Assembly: GCA_937891825.1 (NCBI GenBank)
Contig: CALAHN010000068.1
Span: forward strand, 1-64,000
DNA: 64,000 bases
Source of the DNA: an uncultured Alphaproteobacteria bacterium
GTDB lineage: Bacteria; Pseudomonadota; Alphaproteobacteria; Bin95
Reading direction: 5' to 3'
The notes below the pieces were generated by a model. That model did not search any database. It saw only the letters and a program-made list of their open reading frames with translations, and was not told the origin of the DNA. The translations under genes were made by a program, and so were the position numbers. This document shows positions 1,310-48,968 of the stretch, one piece after another. Position 1 is the first letter of the stretch; each line of letters begins with the position of its first letter.

Positions 1310-1627
1310 TCAAGCGCATTGCCTGCAATGTTCCGTATGCGGCAGGGTTCGCAGGCGCGCCGCCGAAATCCGTTCGCCGCAGGCGATGCATGCGCCGTAG
1401 CGGCCGGCCTCGAGGCGGCCCAGCGCCGCGGTGACCGCGCGGATTTCCGCCAATGCGGCGTTCTCGATGCCTTCCAGCACTTCGTCGCCCTGCCGATTCG
1501 AAGCTTGCTCCTCGATGTCGGGATCGGCGGGCTGATCCAACGTGGCTTCAGCCTCGGCGATACGCTTGCGCAGGGCCTCGAGCCGGTCGGTCAGAAGGGT
1601 TTTGAATTCTGCATAGTTCGTCGTCAT
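1310..1627 (-). CDS. TraR/DksA-type zinc-finger protein
   Basis: A 105-residue protein with an N-terminal coiled-coil-like helical stretch (about residues 5-75, rich in Glu, Ala and Arg) and a C-terminal four-cysteine zinc finger (ACIACGE ... CRQCA, spacing C-x2-C-x17-C-x2-C). This is the TraR/DksA family. DksA proteins bind the RNA polymerase secondary channel and modulate initiation with ppGpp; short members like this one act alone or are uncharacterised. It is shorter than E. coli DksA (151 aa). It lies 42 bases downstream of the CBS-BON gene on the same strand and is probably co-transcribed with it. Family is certain; the specific role is not. Confidence 0.88.
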   Translation of the reverse strand: MTTNYAEFKTLLTDRLEALRKRIAEAEATLDQPADPDIEEQASNRQGDEVLEGIENAALAEIRAVTAALGRLEAGRYGACIACGERISAARLRTLPHTEHCRQCA

Positions 1628-1669
1628 AGCGCTCTCTTGCCTTTAGTTGCGATGATCAAGGCGCCTGCA

Positions 1670-2362
1670 TCAGGCGTAATAGGCGCTCGGGAACAGGGTG
1701 AGCTTGGCGTCCACCCGACGCACGCCGGCGATCCCTTCGACCGCGACCCGGGCGGCTTGCATGACATCGGCGCTGGGCGCGAGGCCCCACAACTCGACGA
1801 CGCCTTGCTTGACGATGACCGTCGCCTGCAGTCCACTCAAGGCCTGAGTTTCGTCAATGAGGGCGCGCGCCGCCTTGCGGATTGCGGCGTCGTCGGCGTG
1901 CGCGTCGGCCGCCTTCGGTTGCAGGGATGCGAAGGCGCGCACGATATCCGCGCGGCTGATGATCCCAACCAGACGGTCGCCGTCCATCACCGGCAGGCGC
2001 TTGACGCCTTGCGTCTCCAGCTTCATCGCGGCCGCCGACAGGTCGACGTCGGGCGCGATCGTCTGGACGGGCTTGCTCATGACATCGCCGACGCGCTTGC
2101 CATGGGATTTCACATAGTCCGCAGCTTTTTCGCGGGCGCCGAACAGGTCGAGCCACCAACTGCGGCTGCGCTGTTCGCCGCCGCCAAGCTCGGCGCGGCC
2201 GATCAGATCGCCCTCGCTCAAGATGCCGACCAGCTTGCCTGCCGCATCGACCACCGGCAGCCCGCTGACGCGGCGCTCCGCCATGCGGCGGGCGGCGTCG
2301 ATCACTGTTTCATCGACCCGCGCGCAGCACACGCCGGTCTGCATGATGTCCTGGACTTTCAT
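1670..2362 (-). CDS. CBS-pair and BON domain protein
   Basis: A 230-residue cytosolic protein. CBS domain 1 spans about residues 1-60 (starting MKVQDIMQTGV, with VSGLPVVDAAGKLVGILSEGDL). CBS domain 2 spans about 90-150 (VGDVMSKPVQTI, VKRLPVMDGDRLVGIISRADI). A BON domain fills about 160-225. CBS pairs bind adenosine nucleotides and report energy state; BON domains usually bind membranes or other proteins. Proteins of this architecture are often controlled by FixK/FNR in Alphaproteobacteria. A TTGAC-N4-ATCAA box lies 76 bases upstream of the start codon, fitting that control. It probably heads an operon with the TraR/DksA gene. Molecular partner unknown. Confidence 0.88.
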   Translation of the reverse strand: MKVQDIMQTGVCCARVDETVIDAARRMAERRVSGLPVVDAAGKLVGILSEGDLIGRAELGGGEQRSRSWWLDLFGAREKAADYVKSHGKRVGDVMSKPVQTIAPDVDLSAAAMKLETQGVKRLPVMDGDRLVGIISRADIVRAFASLQPKAADAHADDAAIRKAARALIDETQALSGLQATVIVKQGVVELWGLAPSADVMQAARVAVEGIAGVRRVDAKLTLFPSAYYA

Positions 2363-2437
2363 CGGTTCGCCTCCCCTTTGCGTGACGGCTTTCCCTGCGC
2401 CACGCCCAAGAGATTGGACCTTTGTCCCGAACCTGAA

Positions 2438-2451
2438 TTGACCTACATCAA
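2438..2451 (-). promoter_or_regulatory. FNR/FixK-type box upstream of CBS-BON gene
   Basis: The 14-mer TTGACCTACATCAA sits inside a longer inverted repeat (GAATTGA / TCAATTC, 2436-2453). It matches the FNR/FixK consensus TTGAT-N4-ATCAA with one change. Its centre is about 82 bases upstream of the start codon at 2362. That is compatible with a class II site near -41.5 if the leader is about 40 bases long. No transcript data are available. Confidence 0.55.
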
Positions 2452-2488
2452 TTCGGCATGATTTTTCCGACGGCCGCGGTCAATAAAT

Positions 2489-2761
2489 TCAGCGGCCGCG
2501 CCGGCCATCGTCGCGGCGCGACGGGCGGTCCTCGCGGCGATGTCGATCGCCGTCGGCGCGATGGCCGCGGCCGTCGCGGTAGCCATAGACCCGGCTGTGG
2601 CCATGGGGAGGCGCGGCCCGATAGTCGCCGCTATAGCCGCTATGGCCATGGCCGCCGCCATGACTGCGGTGACCATAGCAGGCGCTCAGCCCGATCGCTG
2701 CAATGACGACGATCCCGAAAGTCCGCGCGCGGCGCCAGTTCAAGCTGTTTGTCCCGGTCAT
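2489..2761 (-). CDS. Putative His/Arg-rich lipoprotein
   Basis: A 90-residue predicted lipoprotein of no recognised family. The N-terminus has basic residues, a hydrophobic helix (FGIVVIAAIGL) and a lipobox LSAC with cysteine at about residue 28, so the mature protein begins CYGHRSHGGGHGHS. The rest is low complexity, with Gly/His/Tyr repeats first and then an Arg/Asp-rich tail (DRHRREDRPSRRDDGRRG). The His/Gly stretch could bind metal ions, which would fit the nearby VIT gene, but that is only inference. The composition is extreme, so a chance frame cannot be excluded. The signal sequence plus lipobox argues for a real gene. Confidence 0.6.
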   Translation of the reverse strand: MTGTNSLNWRRARTFGIVVIAAIGLSACYGHRSHGGGHGHSGYSGDYRAAPPHGHSRVYGYRDGRGHRADGDRHRREDRPSRRDDGRRGR

Positions 2762-2822
2762 GGTTCATTCGCTCCCTGTTGGTTTCCCTATCCAACGAGC
2801 GACGCGCGAGGTTCCGTCGAAA

Positions 2823-3155
2823 TTATTGCCGGGCGTCAGAGCGTGCCGGTGGAGGCTCCGTCGCTGGCGCGGCCTGGTCCGTCTCGGCGGCAAACAGCAA
2901 GGCGACGAAGGCCGCCAGCACCGCGAATGCCAGCAGCAGAACAACCAACGGCGCCATACCGCCGGTGCGGATGCGCACCGTCCGGCGCCCGAGCGTCAGC
3001 CGTCGCTCGGGCTTCAGGCGGGCTATCGCCGCCAGGAGAAACACGACGCCGCCCGCGACGAACAACCAGTTCAGAAAGTCGCCGGGCAGCACAAGGGCGG
3101 CGTTCATGGCAAGGCTGGCTCCAGAATGCTTCGGGGACAAGCTTCGATCAGTCAT
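2823..3155 (-). CDS. Small two-helix membrane protein
   Basis: A 110-residue hypothetical protein. It has two clear membrane segments, about residues 20-43 (FLNWLFVAGGVVFLLAAIA) and 68-92 (APLVVLLLAFAVLAAFVALL). A basic loop (RLKPERRLTLGRRTVRIR) separates them and a Pro/Ala-rich tail follows. I prefer the ATG at 3155, because starting further upstream (3233) would run into the leader of the divergent oxidoreductase gene and would place a Gly/Pro-rich stretch before the protein. No family is recognised. It may be membrane-bound and partner an unknown protein. Confidence 0.5.
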   Translation of the reverse strand: MTDRSLSPKHSGASLAMNAALVLPGDFLNWLFVAGGVVFLLAAIARLKPERRLTLGRRTVRIRTGGMAPLVVLLLAFAVLAAFVALLFAAETDQAAPATEPPPARSDARQ

Positions 3156-3248
3156 GAGCATAGGCAAACCAAGGCCGCTGGGGAACTTTTCCCTTGCCCC
3201 GCCGCGCCCGGCAGCCGCACTCTCGGGCTGCAATCAGGAGGGGCAGAC

Positions 3249-4805
3249 TTGAGCCTGTATGACGCGATTTTCATTGGCGCCGGCCACAATGGCCTGATCG
3301 GCGCCGCCTATCTCGCCCGGGCCGGGCTAAAGGTTCTGGTCCTGGAGCGGCGGGACATTCTTGGCGGAGCCTGCGTCACCGAGGAGATCCCGGGCGCGCC
3401 GGGCTACCGGGTTTCGACGGGCGCCGCACAGCTCGGCAATCTTCGGCCGGAAATCATTCAGGACCTGGACCTCAAGCGGCATGGCTATGAATTGCTGTTG
3501 CCGGACCCGCTCACAGTCCTGCCCCAACCGGATGGCCGCGCCCTGATCGTCTGGCAGGACGCCCAGAAGACCCGCGCCTCGATCCAGCAGTTCTCCAGCC
3601 GCGACGCCGACGCGCTGACGGCCTTCCAACAGGACTGCGCCCGGTTCTGCGATATCCTGGAGCCGATGCTCTATGCCGAGACGACGCCAGGCTTCGGCGA
3701 CGTCGAGGCCGCATTCCGCGCGGCCGGACGGCGCGACCTGTTCCGAAGCTTCATCCTTGGCAGCATTTCAGACCTTTTGCGCAGCCGTTTCGAAAGCCCT
3801 GCCGTAATGGGATTCCTTGGGCTGACCTCGACCTTCGGCACGAACGCCGGCCCGCAAACGCCCGGCACAGCCTATGTAATGGCGCACCATCTTTTCGGCG
3901 CGACGGCAGGGCGCGGCCGCGCCGGATATGTCCGGGGCGGCATGGGCGGCCTTGCCGACGCGCTGACGCGGTCGGCGAAGGCGCTTGGGGCAGAATTTCT
4001 GACCGGCGCCGAAGTCGGCCGCATCGTCCTTGCGAACGGCGTCGCGACCGGGGTCGAACTCGCGGACGGCAGGCGGTTCGAAGGCCGGCACATTGTCTCC
4101 AACGCCGATCCGCAACGCACTTTCCTCACGCTTGTCGGCCGGCCCTCGCTCGACGAGAGCTTCGCCAACGCGATCGCAGGCATTCAGATGTGCGGTCAGG
4201 CGATCAAGGTGAACTGCGCCCTGGAGCGTTTGCCCCGCTTTCGCGGCCTGCCGGACGGCTTGACGCCCGCCCGCGTCAGCATCTGCCCGAGCCTGGACTA
4301 TGTGGAGGATGCCTGGGACCATGCGAAGCGGGGCCGGTTCTCGCTCGCGCCCTTCATGACTGTCCACATGCAATCGGCGATCGACCCGTCGCTCGCCCCG
4401 GCCGGCCGTCACACGCTCTCCTGCTACGCCCAGTATTTTCCCTATGACCTGGCGCCGGAGCTTGGCGGCTGGGAGACGCAACGGGACGCCGCCGGAAAGG
4501 CGGTGCTCGCTGCCGTCGCCGGGATTACGCGCGACCTGGCGGACGTGGTTTCCACGGTCGATGTGGCGACGCCGCTCGACCTGGAGCGCCAGTTCGCCAT
4601 GACCGGCGGCCACCAGTTCCATGGCGACATCACGCCCGGCCAGTTGTTCGACGACCGGCCGGCCCCAGGGGTATCCGGCGCGCGCACCCCGATCCCCGGC
4701 CTTTACCTCTGCGGCGCGGGCACGCATCCGGGCGGCTGCGTCTGGGGGGCGCCCGGCCAGCGCGCCGCCGCCGCGATCCTGAAGGACGACCGCCGGAATG
4801 CCTGA
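3249..4805 (+). CDS. FAD-dependent phytoene-desaturase-like oxidoreductase
   Basis: A 518-residue amine oxidase/phytoene dehydrogenase-type flavoprotein, closest in layout to the PYROXD2-like group. The Rossmann motif is at the very start (DAIFIGAGHNGLIGAAYLAR, then VLERRDILGG). The C-terminal FAD motif reads LYLCGAGTHPGGCVWGAPG. No ATG lies near the Rossmann motif. The TTG at 3249 is placed seven bases after a perfect AGGAGG (3236-3241), so I choose it; starting further upstream would add about 180 residues of unlikely composition. The gene overlaps the diaminopropionate lyase gene by eight bases, implying co-translation and perhaps amine or amino-acid oxidation. The substrate is unknown. 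Confidence 0.85.
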   Translation: MSLYDAIFIGAGHNGLIGAAYLARAGLKVLVLERRDILGGACVTEEIPGAPGYRVSTGAAQLGNLRPEIIQDLDLKRHGYELLLPDPLTVLPQPDGRALIVWQDAQKTRASIQQFSSRDADALTAFQQDCARFCDILEPMLYAETTPGFGDVEAAFRAAGRRDLFRSFILGSISDLLRSRFESPAVMGFLGLTSTFGTNAGPQTPGTAYVMAHHLFGATAGRGRAGYVRGGMGGLADALTRSAKALGAEFLTGAEVGRIVLANGVATGVELADGRRFEGRHIVSNADPQRTFLTLVGRPSLDESFANAIAGIQMCGQAIKVNCALERLPRFRGLPDGLTPARVSICPSLDYVEDAWDHAKRGRFSLAPFMTVHMQSAIDPSLAPAGRHTLSCYAQYFPYDLAPELGGWETQRDAAGKAVLAAVAGITRDLADVVSTVDVATPLDLERQFAMTGGHQFHGDITPGQLFDDRPAPGVSGARTPIPGLYLCGAGTHPGGCVWGAPGQRAAAAILKDDRRNA

Positions 4806-7790: not shown

Positions 7791-7972
7791 AGCAGGGCCG
7801 CGGCAGACAGTTCGAACGCCGCATGCTGCGGCGCAGGAAAATTGTGCGCACAGCCCAAATCTGGTGTTGACAGAGAGGCCGCTTGGCGGGACATCTCGCA
7901 CATAACTTCGGCTGGCCCAGACCGCGATGGCGCGGCTGCAAAGGGCTGCCGGTCCCGGAACGCGGAGCCGCC

Positions 7973-45077: not shown

Positions 45078-45274
45078 GTCAGCATCCCCCACCCTCCAGC
45101 GCCATCGCTCCTGGCCCCGCCGATGCCGCAGCATAGCCGCCCGATGCCGCCGATGGCGATGGCGTCCAGGCAAAAGGCATTTTTCATGCAGGAAAGATGA
45201 TGCTTAGATGACGTTCAAGGGGGCGCGCTCCGCGCCATCCGCTCCGCTCCACCTCGTTGCATGGAAACTTGAAT

Positions 45275-47572
45275 ATGGCCCGGCCGCTCGAAGGCGTCAC
45301 AGTGCTCGACCTCTCCGTTCACGATGCGGGTGCGCTCGCGACGCAGTTCCTCAGCGATTGCGGCGCGCGGGTTTTGCGCGCCGTCAATCCGAAGGCGCCG
45401 CTGTTTCGCGACGGCGGGTTCGTGATCTGGGATCGCGGCAAGGAGGCGATCGCCTTCGATCCGGACCAACCGGACGCCGCCGAGGTCCTGGCCGGCCTGA
45501 TCCCCGGCCTGGACATCCTGATCGAGGATTTTGCGCCCAGTTCGCCCCATCAGGCGCTTGTCGCGGCCGATCGGCTGAAAGCGTTGAACCCGCGCTTGAT
45601 CGCCTGCTCGATCACGGCCTATGGCAAGCAAGGCCCGCTGAAGGACGACCCGCCGGTTGACGATCTGGTGCTGGCGCGCTCCGGCGTTCTGGGCGGCATG
45701 CCGGGGTTCCGCGCCGCGCCTGTCCACACCGTGCATCCGCTGCCGAGCGTCGGCGCCGGCATTTTCGCCGCCATCGGCGTCGCGGCTGCCTTGCTGGCGC
45801 GCGAGACGACCGGGCGCGGCCGCATGGTCGAAACCTCGATGCTGGCCGGCGCGCTGCTCTATCATCCGAAGGTGCTGGGCGACGGCATTGCGCCCCATGT
45901 CTTCCAGTCCCACCCGTCCGGCAGCGCGCCCTTCTACAGCGTCTATGAATGCGCGGACGGCAATTACGTCCAGCTTGGCTGCGTCCACGAAGGCTTCATC
46001 GGCGCCGCCGCCAAACTGATGGGCATCGCCGACTATGTGGCCGAACCGCGCTTCGACAAAGGCCGCGGCGGCAAGACGGAAGCCGACGTGCAGGAAATGC
46101 GCGACGCGCTGACGAAGATCATGAAGGCCCGCGCCGCCGCCGACTGGTGCGCCGCGTTCGAAGCAGCCGACGTGCCCTTCGCGCCCGCCCGCCACGCCGA
46201 GGAAAGCCTGGACGACGAACAGGTCCGGCATAACGGCATGGTCTGGCAGGCGGACGATCCCGACCGCGGCCCCGTCGTCCAGATGGGCGCGCCCATCGCC
46301 TTCACCAAGACCCCAGCCGCGCCCCAGGGCCCCCGCGCCAAGAGGGCGGCGCCCCCGCCCAGCCTGCCCGCCCTCACAGCCTCCAACCCGCCGCCAGCGG
46401 CGCTCCAGGGCGAAGAGGCGCCGCCCCTGGCAGGCATTCGCGTGCTGGAGATCACCAATCTGATCGCCGGGCCGACCGGCGGGCGGCTGCTCGCCGACCT
46501 CGGCGCCGACGTCATCAAGCTTGAGCCGCCCGCCGGCGACATCTCGCGTCCGATCGGCCGGACGTATTTCTACAACGTCAATTTCAACAAGCGCTCGGTC
46601 TGCTTCGACGCCAAGAAGCCGGGCGCCAAGGAAGCGATCCAGGCGATTGCGGCGACCTGCGACGCGCTGCTCGCCAACATGCGGCCGGGCGCCTCGGAGC
46701 GCATGGGCATCACGCCCGCGATCAACCCGACGCTGATCGAAACCCACCTGACGGGCTACGGCTGGACCGGCCCGTACGCCAAGCGGCCGGGCATCGACCC
46801 GCTGGCCCAGGCGCTGATGGGCTTGCAGCGGGCGCAGGGCGGGCCGGACAACCCGCCCTCCTTCCCCGCACAGTTGGCGCCGACCGACTACACGACCGGC
46901 GCCATGGGGGCGCTCGGCACGATCCTGGCGCTCTATCAATTGAAGACCAGGGGCGTCGTCCAGCGGGTCGAAAGCAATCTTCTGAATGGCGGCGTCGTCC
47001 TGAGTTCGGCCTGGTTCAGCCGCTATCAGGGCAAGCCCGAGCGGCCGCTCGCCGATCAGCAGCAATATGGCCTGAGCGCCCATCACCGGCTCTACCGATT
47101 GGCGGACGGCTGGGTCTATGTCGCGGCCGACCATCCGACAGAGCAGGCGGCGCTGGAGGCCTGGCTCAACGTCGCGAAGGCGGATGCGGCCTGGGATGGC
47201 CATCCGGCGCGCTCGCCGCTGGCGGAGGCGATGGCGGCGGCGTTCGCCGGGCGCACGCTCGCGGACGTGCTGGCGGGGCTCAAGGCCGCCGGCGTGCCCG
47301 CGGCCGAAGCCCAGCCGGGCGACAGCGAGCATTTCCTGAACGATCCGCATTCGGCCGCGAACGCTTTCGTGACGACGCGCCAGCACCCGAAGGTCGGCAA
47401 GCTGACGACGGCCTGGAATTACATCCAGTTTGGCGACACCGCGCTGACCCAAGGCCGCCCGACGCCGCTCCTCGGCGAACAAACGGCCGAAGTACTGAAA
47501 GAATCCGGCCTCGACGACGCGAAAATTCGGGCGCTGTTCGAAAGCGGCGCGGCGCTCGCCGAGACAGTTTGA
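45275..47572 (+). CDS. Tandem CaiB/BaiF CoA-transferase
   Basis: A 765-residue fusion of two class III CoA-transferase (CaiB/BaiF) halves. The N-half (1-350) has LEGVTVLDLSVHDAGALATQ and TGRGRMVETSML; the site of the catalytic Asp reads HPLPSVGAG, so it is lost. The C-half (390-765) has LAGIRVLEITNLIAGPTGG, GADVIKLEPPAGDISRP and the Asp in APTDYTTGAMG, so it is probably the active half. A Pro/Ala linker (about 350-390) joins the two. Class III enzymes transfer CoA between organic acids. The next genes are a DsbA-like selenoprotein, glutathione transferase and acyl-CoA synthetase. ATG 45275 is chosen; TTG 45257 is possible. Confidence 0.85.
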   Translation: MARPLEGVTVLDLSVHDAGALATQFLSDCGARVLRAVNPKAPLFRDGGFVIWDRGKEAIAFDPDQPDAAEVLAGLIPGLDILIEDFAPSSPHQALVAADRLKALNPRLIACSITAYGKQGPLKDDPPVDDLVLARSGVLGGMPGFRAAPVHTVHPLPSVGAGIFAAIGVAAALLARETTGRGRMVETSMLAGALLYHPKVLGDGIAPHVFQSHPSGSAPFYSVYECADGNYVQLGCVHEGFIGAAAKLMGIADYVAEPRFDKGRGGKTEADVQEMRDALTKIMKARAAADWCAAFEAADVPFAPARHAEESLDDEQVRHNGMVWQADDPDRGPVVQMGAPIAFTKTPAAPQGPRAKRAAPPPSLPALTASNPPPAALQGEEAPPLAGIRVLEITNLIAGPTGGRLLADLGADVIKLEPPAGDISRPIGRTYFYNVNFNKRSVCFDAKKPGAKEAIQAIAATCDALLANMRPGASERMGITPAINPTLIETHLTGYGWTGPYAKRPGIDPLAQALMGLQRAQGGPDNPPSFPAQLAPTDYTTGAMGALGTILALYQLKTRGVVQRVESNLLNGGVVLSSAWFSRYQGKPERPLADQQQYGLSAHHRLYRLADGWVYVAADHPTEQAALEAWLNVAKADAAWDGHPARSPLAEAMAAAFAGRTLADVLAGLKAAGVPAAEAQPGDSEHFLNDPHSAANAFVTTRQHPKVGKLTTAWNYIQFGDTALTQGRPTPLLGEQTAEVLKESGLDDAKIRALFESGAALAETV

Positions 47573-47641
47573 TTGCGGAGCCGCCGCCGTTCATGCGACG
47601 CTGTTCCGGCAGTTCAGCTCCAAAAACGGGAGGACGCCGCG

Positions 47642-48265
47642 ATGGCCGATCCGATCACGCTTGAGATCTTCACCGACTACGTTTGACCCTGGTGTTACCT
47701 CAGCACCGGGCGTGTTGAGAAACTGAAGGAAAACTTCGACGTGCAGGTGAAGTGGGTGCATTTTCCGCTGCATCCGGACACGCCCGCCGAAGGCAAATCC
47801 CTGGAAGACCTGTTCCGGGGCCGCGACGTCGACGTTGAAGGCATGTACCGCCAGATGAAGGCCCGCATGGACGCGGAGGGTCTGCCCTATGGTCGGCGGA
47901 CCCACACCTATAACAGCCGCCTCGCCCAGGAAGTCGGCGCATGGGGCGATGCGCAGCTGGGCGGCGCGGACGCCCTCCACGATGCGCTCTACAAGGCCTA
48001 TTTCGTCGATGCGAAGAACATCGCCGATGTCGAGGTTCTGATGGCCATCGTCGAAGCCGTCGGCATGGACGCCGCCGCCGCGCGCGAAGCGCTGGAGGCA
48101 CGGGCCTTTCAAGCCGCGGTCGACGCCGATTGGGCCAAATCCCGGCAATATGGCGTGACCGGCGTGCCGACGTTCGTCGCAGGCGGCTATGGCGTCGTCG
48201 GCGCCCAGCCTTATGAAACCCTGGAAGCGCTTGTCCGGAAAGCCGGCGAAGCGCCCGCCACCTGA
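47642..48265 (+). CDS. DsbA-family (FrnE-like) selenoprotein candidate with UPWC motif
   Basis: A 207-residue thioredoxin-fold protein. Reading starts at ATG 47642, after a strong GGGAGGA (47628-47634). The frame runs MADPITLEIFTDYV-TGA-PWCYLSTGR, then continues intact to 48265. The TGA (47684-47686, residue 15) replaces the first Cys of the CPWC active site of DsbA/FrnE proteins; Cys18 is kept and so is the cis-Pro loop GVTGVPTFVAGG. This is the classic UxxC selenocysteine arrangement. A SECIS-like hairpin follows. A later GTG start would lack strand 1 and the active site. Sec machinery lies outside the window. Alternative: a nonsense change or sequencing error. Confidence 0.8.
47684..47722 (+). 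promoter_or_regulatory. SECIS-like hairpin after in-frame TGA
   Basis: After the TGA (47684-47686) comes a 12-base spacer, then an 8-bp stem CTCAGCAC / GTGTTGAG (one G-U pair) with the loop CGGGC (47707-47711). A lower three-pair extension GTT/AAC is possible. The loop starts 20 bases after the TGA and has G at its second position, meeting the usual bacterial SECIS constraints (spacing of about 16-37 bases, G in the first two loop bases). Confidence 0.6.
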
Positions 48266-48281: not shown

Positions 48282-48968
48282 GTGATCGACGCCTATTATT
48301 GGCCGACGCCAAACGGCTGGAAAATCTCCATCGCCCTGGAGGAGATGGGGCTCGCCTATCGGGTCATCCCGGTCAATATCGGCAAGGGCGAGCAATTCGA
48401 ACCGGACTTCCTGAAAATCAGTCCAAACAACCGCATGCCGGCGATCGTCGATCACGATCCGCCCGGCGGCGGCGAACCGATCGCTGTGTTCGAAAGCGGG
48501 GCGATCCTGATCTATCTCGCCGAGAAGGCGGGGAAATTCCTGCCGACAGCGCTTCGCCCCCGCATGGAAGTCCTGGAATGGCTGATGTGGCAGATGGGCG
48601 GCATGGGGCCGATGTTCGGCCAGTCCGGTCACTTCAAGTTCTATGCGCCGGAACAAATTCCCTACGCCCAGAACCGCTACGAGCAGGAAATGCTGCGGCT
48701 CTATGGCGTTCTGGACCGGCGGCTGGCGGGCCGCGATTTTATTGCGGGCGACTACTCGATCGCCGATATGGCCTGCTGGCCCTGGGTCATCACCTACAAG
48801 CGCCAGAACGTCGATCTGGATGCATTCCCCAACGTCAAACGCTGGTATAAGGCGTTGCAGGCGCGGCCCGCATTGCGCAAAGGCTATGCAGTCGGCCAGG
48901 AATTCGGGAAGCCGACCGGCAAGCGGGACGCGGAAGCACAGCGAAACCTGACGCCCGGCGCGCGCTGA
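48282..48968 (+). CDS. Nu-class glutathione S-transferase (YfcG/YghU-like)
   Basis: A 228-residue thiol transferase. The N-terminal thioredoxin-like domain has [17 protein letters not shown] and [12 protein letters not shown], with the cis-Pro in RMPAIVD, and the glutathione-site [14 protein letters not shown]. The C-terminal helical domain contains [20 protein letters not shown]. No cysteine is in the active-site start; this is the YfcG/YghU (nu) pattern, with disulfide reductase activity. A GTG at 48282 is used, since the sequence begins VIDAYYWPT. It lies 16 bases after the selenoprotein gene, so the two redox proteins are probably co-transcribed. Confidence 0.85.

Follow-up and report, generated by a model that had tools for sequence, protein, structure and literature searches.

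A predicted selenocysteine-containing FrnE-type DsbA oxidoreductase encoded by an uncultured alphaproteobacterium

The gene, its reading frame, and its active site

The window, i.e., the whole 64,000-nucleotide stretch of DNA analyzed here, comes from an uncultured alphaproteobacterium (GCA_937891825.1) and contains a predicted FrnE-type gene that is interrupted by a single TGA. The features of the locus are as follows.

47628..47634, + strand: ribosome-binding site GGGAGGA, 7 nt 5' of the ATG (sequence reading)
47642..48265, + strand: predicted Sec-containing FrnE-type DsbA oxidoreductase gene, 207 aa plus stop (PF01323, PDB, and Foldseek matches)
47684..47686, + strand: in-frame TGA, predicted Sec15, first active-site position of U-P-W-C (44 TGA and 38 TGC/TGT in distinct relatives)
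47693..47695, + strand: TGT, resolving Cys18 (column invariant in the alignment of relatives)
47699..47719, + strand: bacterial SECIS-like hairpin with stem CUCAGCAC/GUGUUGAG (pairing, covariation, and fold)
48167..48169, + strand: cis-Pro P176 in GVTGVPTF, expected to face the active site (column invariant in the alignment of relatives)

Direct reading of the sequence bore out the layout given in the original prediction, namely the GGGAGGA, the ATG at 47642, the TGA at 47684-47686, and an intact frame to 48265, and the cis-Pro loop that it claimed was found as GVTGVPTF. From the ATG, the frame reads MADPITLEIFTDYV, then the TGA, then PWCYLST, and stays open up to the stop TGA at 48263-48265. 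The TGA is the sole internal stop of the 207-residue frame and gives the motif U15-P-W-C18. A profile search with the read-through protein matched PF01323 over residues 6 to 196 (E = 1.1e-35), and its PDB sequence matches included the Deinococcus FrnE entries 5cnw/5cp1 (E of about 6e-28). The features of FrnE/DsbA proteins are present, i.e., the DSBA domain, the (C/U)PWC motif, and the cis-Pro. Besides Sec15, the only thiol is that of Cys18; the translated 207-aa product has no Cys after C18 and thus lacks a C-terminal CX4C. This motif is common in FrnE but is neither universal nor defining, being absent from the FrnE proteins of D. maricopensis and S. roseofulvus (PMC8945050).

An AlphaFold model built on 32 relatives, with Sec modelled as Cys, had a pLDDT of 90.6. 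Foldseek ranked Deinococcus FrnE (5co3) at the top, with an E value of 3.1e-13 and a TM score of 0.87 by query length. In the model, Sec15 lies just N-terminal to the helix that begins at residue 16, and the cis geometry of P176 is assumed from the family.

The standard list of open reading frames holds only the form that starts at GTG 47741 and has lost the active site, which is exactly the gene-caller truncation that the original prediction foresaw. This form would be the functional product if the UGA were a real or leaky stop. Such a product would, however, have neither the first strand nor any of the UPWC motif or helix 1, and so would be without the active site and several invariant residues. 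Moreover, close relatives preserve the family sequence over the 14 codons 5' of the TGA, and the Shine-Dalgarno-like site is positioned to serve ATG 47642. We consider a functional product from GTG 47741 very unlikely.

Selenocysteine and cysteine forms among the relatives

Relatives were sampled by a search of 142 genomes and a GTDB scan (80 loci). After removal of identical genes, the codon corresponding to Sec15 in relatives of 45 to 75% identity was TGA in 44, TGC in 20, and TGT in 18, with no other codon observed. The TGA falls, as had been claimed, at the position of the catalytic Cys, and the comparison with the family that the original prediction proposed shows Cys in this column in other close homologues. 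Only one of all these relatives has another in-frame stop, near the C-terminus. The 142-genome search contributed five further close relatives with one internal TGA. Cys-side relatives are about 55 to 65% identical to the window protein, and the loci read for more distant FrnE paralogues, one of them in the host genome (L023), have Cys there. A search of plasmids gave relatives only under 60% identity and none at or above this value.

Records of the TGA form carry the labels Alpha-, Beta-, and Gammaproteobacteria, Rokubacteria, Myxococcota, Acidobacteriota, Planctomycetota, Desulfobacteraceae, and Gemmatimonadota, although these are metagenome bins and some labels may be wrong. Since the read-through product matches PF01323 and several phyla have TGA at this exact codon, the TGA is not a chance occurrence. 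A TGA is one base away from TGC/TGT and the assembly is a 163-contig draft, as would suit a chance change in a dying or misread frnE. The same TGA is nevertheless found in 44 distinct genes from separate assemblies, the frame 3' of it is intact and conserved at 65 to 75% identity in the nearest relatives, and a hairpin holds the downstream synonymous sites fixed (see below). Independent TGA homologues under selection refute a pseudogene or sequencing error, to which we give next to no credence.

The two forms also differ in the genomes that carry them. A strong tRNA-Sec match was found in 20 of 25 genomes with a TGA relative versus 4 of 25 with a Cys relative (Fisher p = 1.2e-5), these 50 genomes having been picked by hand to span the TGA and Cys groups and related genomes not being independent. 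A match was counted as strong above 60 bits, a line set after seeing the gap between 62.3 and about 53 bits and used because the Rfam cut-off of 47 bits also lets in other tRNAs. The five TGA genomes that lack a strong match are draft metagenome genomes. No strong match was present in the genomes of the Cys forms L090, L093, and L117.

In the tree, the Cys forms fall into three groups amid the Sec forms: L090 within a betaproteobacterial Sec group, L093 together with L117, and a large marine Rhodospirillales/SAR116 group. With the Cys paralogues as outgroup, this arrangement points to Sec having arisen once and having been replaced again by Cys three times, in a tree whose basal branches are unresolved and which gives an indication of the direction only. 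A further-reaching proposal, which we regard as possible but rather doubtful, is that of a distinct FrnE subclade without an NCBIfam model, having a single gain of Sec, a subsequent dispersal across many phyla during which the SECIS stayed almost frozen, and at least three reversions to Cys, mostly where tRNA-Sec was not found.

The downstream hairpin and the selenocysteine machinery

The hairpin was not part of the original prediction. It begins 12 nt past the UGA and has an 8-bp stem (arms at 47699-47706 and 47712-47719) and a 5-nt loop, CGGGC (47707-47711), with G second and 20 nt after the UGA. In spacing, loop, and stem it fits the bacterial SECIS model as given in PMC13188914. The family hairpin folds at -16.0 kcal/mol and wins in a 55-nt segment and across the alignment. 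The bare 45-nt segment of the window favors a competing hairpin (-14.7) as its minimum-energy fold, and for L129 and L137, which are the most distant of the TGA relatives, the predicted fold differs from the family hairpin.

The segment CTCAGyACCGkGCGTrTTGAg is nearly frozen in the TGA relatives, third codon positions included, whereas the Cys relatives differ in sequence here and the hairpin is absent from them. Pairing in the stem CUCAGYAC/GURUUGAG amounts to 7.39 of 8 pairs for TGA genes, compared with 4.27 for Cys genes. When each codon was redrawn from the synonymous codons of the same gene, the expectation was 4.29 ± 0.20 of 8 pairs, with a maximum of 4.82 in 500 resamplings. Changes on both sides were seen at three of the eight pairs (9 cells versus 2.1 in shuffles, 31 distinct rows), a compensatory change from U-A to C-G occurs in 7 of the 31 rows, and slid registers of the stem fail the covariation test. 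The stem is conserved beyond the constraint of the protein. An Rfam scan of the window returned nothing, no Rfam family matching the hairpin at cut-off.

The host genome (4.3 Mb in 163 contigs, a draft that is 99.97% complete) contains tRNA-Sec (71.5 bits; anticodon UCA by ARAGORN), selB (424 bits), selA (512 bits), which adjoins selB, and selD (276 bits), all over cut-off. The search for selABCD proposed in the original prediction, which had named their absence as evidence against itself, found them all. The selD, of the Cys form CGGCGAK, makes up the C-terminal half of a 722-aa protein (ORF 1390-3558, minus strand, L018, G000:C104), the N-terminal half of which resembles an NAD(P)/FAD dehydrogenase (NADH dehydrogenase).

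Read-through of the UGA is needed in any case, and a reassigned code or a suppressor might insert Trp or Cys instead. Against this, the window gene itself ends in TGA, as do 24 of the 48 counted TGA loci; the host has the Sec machinery; and in its other TGA-containing genes that were found, the TGA falls at redox positions. Insertion of Trp or Cys is, in our judgment, scarcely credible.

Family searches that read through stops gave at least four more candidate selenoproteins in the host genome, each with TGA at a redox site, so Sec decoding is probably in wider use there. A SelW-like (PF10262) gene with a CGVU motif is a probable selenoprotein (L267, G000:C89:55655-55852). A Bcp-like peroxiredoxin with TPGU has its TGA at the expected peroxidatic position (L272/L195, G000:C49:1691-2056, minus strand). 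The others are a Prx-like protein with a UPYC motif (L273/L186, G000:C40:1829-2269, minus strand) and a protein that has an AhpC/TlpA-like domain, a UGC motif, and a long extension at the C-terminus (L150, G000:C4:2002-2331, minus strand). A de novo codon-bias scan for more TGA genes over roughly 1.7 of the 4.3 Mb was less productive than the family searches, yielding antisense noise for the most part and missing the known case; it gave one weak candidate, GVDUVCAFC, in L178 around 2846 on the minus strand. Elsewhere in the window, another TGA candidate (at 7868) was rejected as intergenic.

Predicted function, known family, and neighborhood

The recoded codon, the conserved RNA signal, the machinery, and the fold are supported by computation. 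The machinery, the TGA/Cys column, and the hairpin support the original reading of the gene as a probable selenoprotein. The TGA at 47684-47686 is very probably a genuine Sec codon in a FrnE/DsbA-type active site, and we put the probability that the gene makes a Sec-containing thiol:disulfide oxidoreductase of the FrnE branch of the DsbA superfamily at about 0.96.

The incorporation of Sec and the chemistry, direction, and partners of the reaction are inferred. The ribosome would decode the UGA as Sec, with the downstream hairpin recruiting SelB and SelB bringing Sec-tRNA-Sec. The protein is probably cytosolic because the fold begins at residue 5, too early for a signal peptide to precede it. 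The selenolate of Sec15 would attack a substrate disulfide or an oxidized thiol, Cys18 would resolve the selenenylsulfide, and cis-Pro176 would hold the substrate. As there is no further Cys, regeneration would depend on an external partner such as the thioredoxin or glutathione systems. By analogy, a role as a cytosolic thiol:disulfide reductase or isomerase with an external reductant is likely. Deinococcus radiodurans FrnE DR_0659 (PDB 5CNW, 5CO3), a cytosolic disulfide reductase/isomerase, has the same fold and a CPWC at the matching place, with Cys where the window protein has the predicted Sec. Unlike the window protein, it also has a CX4C motif for regeneration at its C-terminus (PMC8945050). 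The SCO1869 DsbA oxidoreductase (PDB 3GL5) is also alike in its FrnE-type DsbA fold, although identity is low (30%).

COG2761 is what we take to be the FrnE-type DsbA group. Sec-containing DsbA-like UxxC proteins were classed under COG2761 in the Sargasso Sea data in 2005 (PMC1088965), and "DsbA 1" was among the more numerous selenoprotein families of the Global Ocean Sampling in 2008 (PMC2398784). A 2026 review lists "DsbA-like protein (form 1)," with UxxC, as predicted and without experimental verification (PMC13188914). Sec-containing DsbA-like proteins (COG2761/PF01323) are therefore an already catalogued predicted family, which the original prediction did not mention. Like the window gene, form 1 combines this fold family with Sec in place of the first Cys of CxxC, a bacterial SECIS downstream, and widespread Cys homologues. 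The window protein fits form 1 by UxxC and PF01323 and may belong to the same subclade as the published representatives NIP15863.1 and AACY01178397. The window gene is a solid further member of a selenoprotein type predicted since 2005. A literature search for "UPWC" found nothing relevant.

Ordinary gene callers cut this well-supported predicted selenoprotein at GTG 47741 and remove its active site. No NCBIfam model matches the window protein at cut-off, so the same truncation may recur in many genomes. The Rcas_1661 family thioredoxin-like (seleno)lipoprotein model (NF041057, DsbG-like) is similar in its thioredoxin fold and UxxC, but the protein is not a member, scoring 38 bits against a cut-off of 190 in the C-terminal part only. 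The close Sec and Cys forms of this family offer a natural comparison well suited to showing what Sec contributes to a disulfide enzyme of the cytosol.

Directly downstream, 48282-48968 encodes a YfcG-like GST whose resemblance to the GSH-dependent disulfide-bond oxidoreductase stays below the NCBIfam cut-off; this thiol-redox neighbor is not the adjoining gene in relatives. Conserved neighborhood was set aside as a clue to function, since only the upstream gene is kept, and within the genus alone (L059-L061). This gene, at 45257-47572, directly upstream, encodes a 771-aa protein with two tandem CoA-transferase family III (CaiB-like) domains.
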